Position numbers and translations under genes: made by a program. The notes under the pieces are model-generated. The model worked only from the letters and a program-made list of their open reading frames with translations, ran no database searches and had not been told where the DNA came from. Positions 46,667 through 48,367 of a stretch of 64,000 bases of DNA are shown here, piece by piece. The first letter of the stretch is position 1. Every line of letters begins with the position of its first letter. Source of the DNA: Clostridiales bacterium (GTDB lineage: Bacteria; Bacillota; Clostridia; Christensenellales; CAG-138); the NCBI GenBank assembly GCA_918244965.1, contig CAKJYC010000004.1:1-64000 (forward strand). The letters run 5' to 3'.

Positions 46667-47758
46667 TCAGGATTCGTCGGAAGAAGGAGAGGGCTCAGGA
46701 GAATCTTCGCGAAGCTTAATGTATTTTGCAGCAAGTCGGCTCTTTTCTTCCGTCATAGCGGCATAATGCTTGCGGGTCGTGTTGACGTCTTTGTGACCGA
46801 GCACATCGGCAACCAGATAGATGTCGCCGCTCTCCTGATAGAGCATCGTACCGTAAGTGCTGCGCAGTTTATGCGGCGTGATCTTTTTCAACGGCGTTGC
46901 GATCTGCGCATACTTTTTCACAAGGTTTTCAACGGCGCGCGGTGTGATGCGTTTTCTCTGCATGGACAGAAAGAACGCGGATTCATGTCCGGCAATCGGG
47001 ATAACAGTTTTTCGTTCTTCAAGATACTCCAAAAGTGCGGCGCGTACTTCCGGACCAAAAGCAAGCGTTTCCTGATTGCCGCCTTTGCGTGTAACAATGA
47101 ATTCATTTTTAGAAAAATCCACATCGTTCAGGTCGATTCCGACAAGCTCGGAGATTCGGATTCCGGTGCCGAGAAACAGAGAGAGGATCGCGACGTCGCG
47201 CAGCTTCGTCGCATCGTGGTATCTGCGCTGTGCCTTACTCAAACCGCTGCCTTGCTCGGCAGAATCGAGAAGATCCGCGACCTCGTTGGCCTCAAGTCGA
47301 ATAATGGCTTTTTCATGCAGCTTCGGCGTGTCGACCAACGCAGCACAATTTGTTTTGATCAACTCTTTTTTATATAAATATTTAAATAATGCACGAATAG
47401 CCGATAATTTGCGGGATTTCGCACGTTCATTGTTTTCGATCAGTTTTTCGACTTCTGCGGTTTGGTTCTTATACAGTGAGATGTATTCCAGATAAAGCTC
47501 AATATCAAGGGAGCAGAGGAGTTCCAGATCGGTGCATGACAGATCCCGGATCGCTTTATCGGAAAACCGATCGATTTGTCCGGACGTCAAAAATCGAAAG
47601 AATGTACGAAGATCGACAGCATATCCGTAACGTGTCAATACCGACGTCGTCGGTTCGATGGCTCGAAAATATAACCGGCAAAAACCGGGCAGTTCCGATA
47701 AAACGTTTCTGAAGCGCTCGGTCATGATTTGTTTCTTTTCGAGCTGGTAATCACTCAT
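46667..47758 (-). CDS. XerS-like tyrosine recombinase
   Basis: 363 residues. N-terminal SAM-like core-binding domain (about 15-135) and a catalytic domain with the complete residue set: Arg201 (GTGIRISELVG), Lys225, His296 and Arg299 (HKLRSTYG), His322 (LGHKD) and Tyr332 (RKHYAAM). The N-terminal ELPGFCRLYFRAIEPTTS pattern belongs to a chromosomal family of Clostridia rather than a phage integrase. It probably acts alone, like streptococcal XerS, in chromosome dimer resolution. The start at 47758 has GGAGG seven bases upstream. A 14-6-14 inverted repeat lies just upstream of the promoter. Confidence 0.85.
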   Translation of the reverse strand: MSDYQLEKKQIMTERFRNVLSELPGFCRLYFRAIEPTTSVLTRYGYAVDLRTFFRFLTSGQIDRFSDKAIRDLSCTDLELLCSLDIELYLEYISLYKNQTAEVEKLIENNERAKSRKLSAIRALFKYLYKKELIKTNCAALVDTPKLHEKAIIRLEANEVADLLDSAEQGSGLSKAQRRYHDATKLRDVAILSLFLGTGIRISELVGIDLNDVDFSKNEFIVTRKGGNQETLAFGPEVRAALLEYLEERKTVIPIAGHESAFFLSMQRKRITPRAVENLVKKYAQIATPLKKITPHKLRSTYGTMLYQESGDIYLVADVLGHKDVNTTRKHYAAMTEEKSRLAAKYIKLREDSPEPSPSSDES

Positions 47759-47791: not shown

Positions 47792-47833
47792 TTCGTATAT
47801 ACGAATTATAACAAAACTATTCGTTAAAGACAA
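47792..47833 (-). promoter_or_regulatory. Recombinase promoter with palindrome at the start point
   Basis: TTGTCT (complement of 47828-47833), 17-bp spacer, TATAAT (complement of 47805-47810). The perfect palindrome TTCGTATATACGAA (47792-47805) lies from the -10 edge to about +7, an operator position. Confidence 0.65.
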
Positions 47834-47848
47834 GTTTAACGAATAGTT
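47815..47848. repeat. Perfect 14-6-14 inverted repeat, candidate dif site
   Basis: AACTATTCGTTAAA (47815-47828), spacer GACAAG (47829-47834), TTTAACGAATAGTT (47835-47848). The arms match at all 14 positions. The 6-bp centre is the spacing used by Xer recombinases. It is the first element upstream of the recombinase gene, as difSL is for xerS. It overlaps the -35 box, so an operator or a weak terminator for rnhA are alternatives. Confidence 0.55.
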
Positions 47849-47884: not shown

Positions 47885-48367
47885 TTATTCGGGCTTCAAA
47901 CCGTCTGCGTCAGTCGATTCTGTGCATTCGTCCTGAAGTGCTTTGATCGCATCGCGTGCCAGTTTGTCACAGCGATTGTTTTCAGCATTGTCCGAATGTC
48001 CTTTAACTTTATGAAAGCATACAACATGCGTTTCACATAGCGCAAGCAATTGTTCCCATAGATCGCGATTGTCGACTTCGCCGCGGTTTGCCGTTTTCCA
48101 ACCGTTTTGCTGCCAGCGTTTCAGCCAGCCTTTTTCAAAAGCGCCGCACAGATATGCGCTGTCGGTATACAGATCGACTGAGCAGCTGCGTTTCAAAAGT
48201 CGCAATGCTTCGATCGCAGCAGTCAGCTCCATGCGGTTGTTTGTCGTTTCTGCGGCGTTCCCACTGGCTTCTTTGCGATGCGAACCGTACAACAGCACGC
48301 AGCCCCAGCCGCCCGGTCCCGGATTGCGCGAACAAGCGCCGTCAGTGTAGATGTCGACCCGATCCAT
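47885..48367 (-). CDS. rnhA: Ribonuclease HI
   Basis: 160 residues. Active-site residues Asp9 (YTDGACSRNPGPGGWG), Glu47 (NNRMELTAAIEAL), Asp69 (LYTDSAYL) and the C-terminal HSDNAENNRCDKLARDA are present, giving an active E. coli-type RNase H1 that removes RNA from RNA-DNA hybrids. The basic handle helix region (GWLKRWQQNGWKTANRG) is also present. A short acidic tail follows. GAGGAAAC precedes the ATG, which is six bases after the SPOR protein stop. Confidence 0.93.
   Translation of the reverse strand: MDRVDIYTDGACSRNPGPGGWGCVLLYGSHRKEASGNAAETTNNRMELTAAIEALRLLKRSCSVDLYTDSAYLCGAFEKGWLKRWQQNGWKTANRGEVDNRDLWEQLLALCETHVVCFHKVKGHSDNAENNRCDKLARDAIKALQDECTESTDADGLKPE

Follow-up and report, generated by a model that had tools for sequence, protein, structure and literature searches.

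The question raised by this locus is what function is served by a perfect inverted repeat that lies in the gap between rnhA and a tyrosine recombinase gene in a clostridial genome. The repeat lies at positions 47815 to 47848 of the window, that is, the whole 64,000-nucleotide stretch of DNA that was analyzed, and reads AACTATTCGTTAAA-GACAAG-TTTAACGAATAGTT. Its two 14-bp arms are 100% complementary and flank a 6-bp center, just as a previous sequence-only reading of this DNA had described it. A perfect 14-6-14 repeat has a chance of 4^-14 at a given place and of about 2e-4 in the whole window. The repeat and its surroundings comprise the following features:

46667 to 47758, minus strand: gene for the single Xer tyrosine recombinase (363 aa; Phage_integrase domain, catalytic residues), presumed to act on the site
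47805 to 47810, minus strand: TATAAT, -10 box in the promoter of the recombinase gene; most relatives have TAnAAT with this spacing
47815 to 47828, plus strand: left arm of the putative dif site, a recombinase half-site; perfect inverted repeat, symmetric and conserved in relatives
47828 to 47833, minus strand: TTGTCT, -35 box in the promoter of the recombinase gene, within the site center; kept with the -10 box in relatives
47829 to 47834, plus strand: asymmetric 6-bp center GACAAG (CTTGTC on the minus strand), the presumed exchange region setting polarity
47835 to 47848, plus strand: right arm of the putative dif site, a recombinase half-site; perfect inverted repeat
47893, no strand: position at which the cumulative GC skew of the window peaks (from the skew profile), plus-to-minus switch, replication terminus

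Several lines of evidence bear on this question. First, the repeat lies where the GC skew changes sign. Skew in the window was positive up to the repeat and negative beyond it, and position 47893, only 62 bp from the center of the site, was both the peak of the cumulative skew and the best single change point. Similar distances were found in relatives. For instance, in a genome of the same genus (G077), of whose 471-kb contig 400 kb was read, the skew peak was 192 bp from the site, and in G046 it was ∼0.4 kb away. In two complete chromosomes of the order (G165 and G233), the site was ∼1.3 kb from the peak of 200-kb stretches, and 20-kb samples taken round the circle showed one plus-to-minus switch, at the site. 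The site and dnaA were 1.36 Mb apart in the first of these chromosomes (2.56 Mb) and 1.57 Mb apart in the second (2.97 Mb), or 53% of the circle in each. Furthermore, the skew of the left flank exceeded that of the right flank in 20 out of 20 further family loci. A position at the skew switch opposite oriC, as expected for a dif site, was thus found, with the peak at the site in the window itself and dnaA opposite in the two complete chromosomes. Because the genome under study is a 95-contig assembly, the opposition to oriC comes from relatives only.

Second, the site occurs once per genome and is conserved. Even when 3 mismatches were tolerated, no second copy was detected in the 95%-complete, 2.33-Mb assembly, and each genome that matched, this assembly included, had a single match. 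The degenerate motif was present exactly once in 68 of the 103 family genomes, compared to 0 for a backwards control pattern, and nearly all of these sites were 20 to 140 bp upstream of the recombinase gene, so the proposed conservation next to the same recombinase holds in relatives. The exact pattern was missing from the other 35 genomes, many of which are incomplete and some of which carry variants, e.g., ATCTTTTCGCAAAA in locus L029. The named relatives are gut and rumen Clostridia and Christensenella. The two arms covary, a good example being genus g23, which has ACATTGCG/CGCAATGT compared to ACTATTCG/CGAATAGT. Among 42 distinct chromosomal sites, 10 of the 13 arm positions were always symmetric and the mid-center positions were asymmetric, a result that the search pattern fixes in part. 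In the class as a whole (393 genomes), the motif was found in 13 genomes, all of them among the 71 with the recombinase (called at E ≤ 1e-60), compared to 0 of the 322 others (P = 8e-11).

The site extends to other clostridial families in a less symmetric form. Of 19 further relatives, 18 had a version of the site <1 kb upstream of the recombinase gene, and most of these versions were asymmetric, e.g., ACTATGCGCAAAA-TAAAAG-TTTTACGAATAGT. These other families (loci L408 to L424) showed a conserved arm, ACTATGCGCAAAA, and a looser one, with a center that was mostly TACAAG or GACAAG. The perfect palindrome is thus one end of a series, and in other families one arm is strong and the other is weaker.

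Third, the gene next to the site encodes the only candidate Xer protein of this 95%-complete genome, since the other two Phage_integrase genes resemble mobile-element integrases. Its start is 56 bp from the repeat; rnhA (47885 to 48367, minus strand) lies on the other side of the repeat, and lexA follows the recombinase gene. The Phage_integrase domain (Pfam) scored 105.8 bits, and the catalytic set that the sequence-only reading had seen as complete was indeed recovered in full (R201, K225, H296, R299, H322, and Y332). The genome also encodes an FtsK with a gamma domain (100.7 bits). Palindromic sites beside tyrosine recombinases are common in mobile elements, and the repeat might be viewed as the attachment site of such an element with the neighboring gene as its integrase. 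That is hardly credible here, considering that the gene sits between lexA and rnhA and was matched in 94 of the 103 family genomes, most of them at full length. It is also the sole tyrosine recombinase in two genomes that are 98 to 99% complete (G395 and G380), ≤0.4 kb from the site in both, and no second copy of the site was found flanking any element.

The promoter of the recombinase gene overlaps the repeat. On the minus strand, 17 bp separate the sequence TTGTCT from a perfect TATAAT, and TTGTCT-N17-TAnAAT was retained in most relatives, which bears out the earlier claim that the -35 box lies within the repeat. Bound recombinase would cover this box and would thereby repress its own gene, making autoregulation plausible. 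In genus g20 (loci L016, L018, L020, L023, L024, and L027), the start codon is ∼6 bases after the -10 box, and so the transcript may be nearly leaderless. A -35 box inside the center, with a perfectly spaced -10 box in many relatives, also speaks for an operator only, at which the recombinase or another regulator would act on the overlapping promoter and recombination would play no part. We consider this very unlikely, however, as an operator offers no reason for a terminus position opposite oriC, and identical arms are found in phages that have neither that gene nor that promoter (see below).

Further evidence against an operator comes from loci where the site and the gene are apart, by kilobases or on different contigs, as in genus g22 and in Lachnospiraceae, and the site is still single copy. 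In g22, the site and the gene are either separated by 7.6 kb or on different contigs, and the skew peak was 0.2 to 1.5 kb from the site. Among the Lachnospiraceae-type loci, 13 combined a clear skew peak with a distance of >1 kb between site and gene (L049 was left out because its gene was not at the assumed coordinate). Eight of these 13 sites, compared to none of the 13 genes, were ≤130 bp from the peak. The site was nearer to the peak than the gene in 10 of the 13 (sign test, ∼0.09), which is only suggestive, and we therefore rely on the closeness of the site to the peak. At some Lachnospiraceae loci, several kb lay between the site and the local peak of the skew. Taken together, the peak mostly follows the site and not the gene when the two are apart, and this separates a dif site from an operator. 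In two g22 genomes (L175 to L178; G054:C17 and G055:C15), a contig end was found ∼1 kb or less from the site, which may reflect variable or repeated DNA at dif.

A repeat downstream of rnhA could also act as its intrinsic terminator. A terminator scan flagged the repeat as a 14-bp stem with a 6-nt loop and a T-containing tail (0.3 expected), and the RNA fold was better than that of shuffled sequences (z = -3.4). However, the stem has only 3 G-C pairs, relatives retain the arms but carry GTGTTAAAAT rather than a T run, and the asymmetric arms of other Clostridia would make a poorer stem. Conservation of the arms was also seen, in part, at sites that have no gene ahead of them. Nor would a terminator be expected to be unique in each genome, to lie at the skew switch, or to recur letter for letter in phages. 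A terminator is thus exceedingly unlikely.

Single copy, conservation, and position at the skew switch are all as expected for a dif site, and we put the probability at about 95% that the repeat is the place where a single-recombinase Xer system resolves chromosome dimers, judging from comparisons of sequence. In the mechanism that we propose, two monomers of the neighboring recombinase would bind the two 13- to 14-bp arms, and the two sites of a chromosome dimer would be brought together at the septum, presumably under the control of FtsK. Strand exchange across the 6-bp center, at the presumed cleavage positions, would then resolve the dimer into two monomers. Because the arms are identical, the polarity of the site can be set by the asymmetric center alone. 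This half-site identity offers a clean natural test, a one-enzyme system in which polarity would come from the center alone. The sequence of the site appears to be undescribed, as the sequence-only reading had supposed; open-access literature on the arm sequence and on clostridial XerS/dif contained no description of it. It would provide the dif sequence that has been lacking for a large set of Clostridia from gut and rumen, among them Christensenellaceae and many Lachnospiraceae, and could serve as a terminus marker for metagenome-assembled genomes.

The recombinase had been called XerS-like, and this was upheld for the architecture of the system and not for membership in the XerS family. Like XerS/difSL of streptococci and lactococci, the system has a single recombinase of ∼360 aa with the site directly upstream and at the terminus, and the present arms resemble TTTCCGAAAA of difSL (PMC5357621). 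Unlike difSL, which is a 31-bp site with an 11-bp center (PMC5357621), the site has a center of 6 bp and perfect symmetry, and the upstream placement (56 bp here) is not kept in g22 or in most Lachnospiraceae. The best NCBIfam model for the recombinase was XerS (NF003462) at 196.9 bits, which is below the cut-off of 267 bits. Three proteins that scored above this cut-off were 26 to 30% identical to the recombinase, no nearer than ordinary XerC/D-like proteins, and no comparable palindrome was found upstream of the three NCBIfam-XerS genes examined. In the tree, the clostridial recombinases formed a clade of their own (100/99 support), with XerS on a long branch that fell on their side of the midpoint root and no streptococcal sequence knowingly included; because of the long branches, the deeper placement of the clade is unsure. 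Given the score below the cut-off, the separate clade, and the 6-bp center, the system would function like XerS/difSL and is not a member of it by the tests run. It seems to represent an additional type of Xer system with a single recombinase.

Two other systems share some of these features. XerCD/dif of Escherichia coli and Bacillus subtilis also has two half-sites, a 6-bp center, and a single copy at the terminus (PMC5357621, PMC3025954), but it uses two recombinases compared to one here, where the gene adjoins the site. The arms here are identical and differ from the B. subtilis-type dif that seeded the Firmicutes dif predictions, which covered XerCD genomes only (PMC3025954). XerH/difH of Helicobacter and Campylobacter likewise has a single recombinase beside the site and a center of 6 to 10 bp (PMC5357621), but the arms are different and the protein is distant (E = 7e-8 for PDB 5jjv compared to 5e-22 for XerD, 1a0p).

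The same arms were also found in phages. The motif with a 6-bp center was present in at least 120 IMG/VR stretches, compared to 0 with a 5-bp center, 2 with a 7-bp center, and 0 with scrambled arms; by our own estimate, ∼0.01 would be expected by chance. A total of 83 viral loci were examined, of which three (L244, L245, and L249) were set aside because of a host-type recombinase, leaving 80. These three IMG/VR contigs, which carry both the host-type recombinase and the site, are probably host terminus DNA called viral or prophages near dif. At least 80 phage contigs (L145 to L152 and L190 to L264) had the same 13-bp arms around diverse 6-bp centers, which differed from one another and from the [GCT]ACAAG that makes up most chromosomal centers in the family.

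Some trends were apparent in the placement of the phage copies. In 68 of the 80, the site adjoined a terminase large-subunit gene and/or a member of a small ORF family, one exemplar of which is a terminase small subunit. The small ORF typically ended 0 to 100 bp before the site, and the terminase gene was directed away from it in 48 of 49 cases. Most sites were flanked by such a small ORF on one side and the large-subunit gene on the other. The centers were oriented relative to the terminase gene, position 6 being G in 33 of 49. The large subunits belonged to two unrelated-looking families, which makes a cos site recognized by the terminase less likely. About half of the 34 viral records tested had an integrase of their own. 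A classification of the small viral contigs as microviruses was rejected, as their proteins were terminases and portals; the true Microviridae that carry the site are other records (see below).

A precedent for such placement is loxP of phage P1, whose 13-bp arms enclose a short asymmetric spacer close to the start of packaging, a layout that the phage copies share. The loxP spacer is 8 bp, however, and its recombinase, Cre, is encoded by the phage, the presumed enzyme here being the host's. Our best guess for the tailed-phage copies, by analogy, would be a role like that of loxP near pac of P1. More specifically, tailed phages of these Clostridia may carry dif-arm copies with a private center by the terminase genes, at the start of packaging. 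Host Xer would then resolve multimers or circularize DNA with terminal redundancy, a task that P1 performs with its own Cre/lox, and the private center would prevent exchange with the host chromosome or between different phages. We hold this tentatively, at slightly less than even odds; resolution of plasmid-prophage multimers or simple binding of the host enzyme are possible alternatives. Open-access literature on Xer sites near terminase genes yielded nothing relevant. In general, we infer from the sequences that mobile elements may borrow the host enzyme with a private center. This exposes a widespread and directly testable link of phages to the chromosome-resolution enzyme of their hosts.

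Near matches were also seen in other elements. Two complete Microviridae genomes had them outside annotated genes (L362:3167-3200 and L363:1618-1650), and these copies perhaps serve Xer-dependent integration, as in gokushoviruses. Plasmid BLAST matches in Enterococcus prgB genes were dropped as partial chance matches. Degenerate versions were present in the 243-kb plasmid of Roseburia sp. 831b (L365:4001-4029) and in pRGI00704 (L364:2563-2598), suggesting multimer resolution by the host enzyme.
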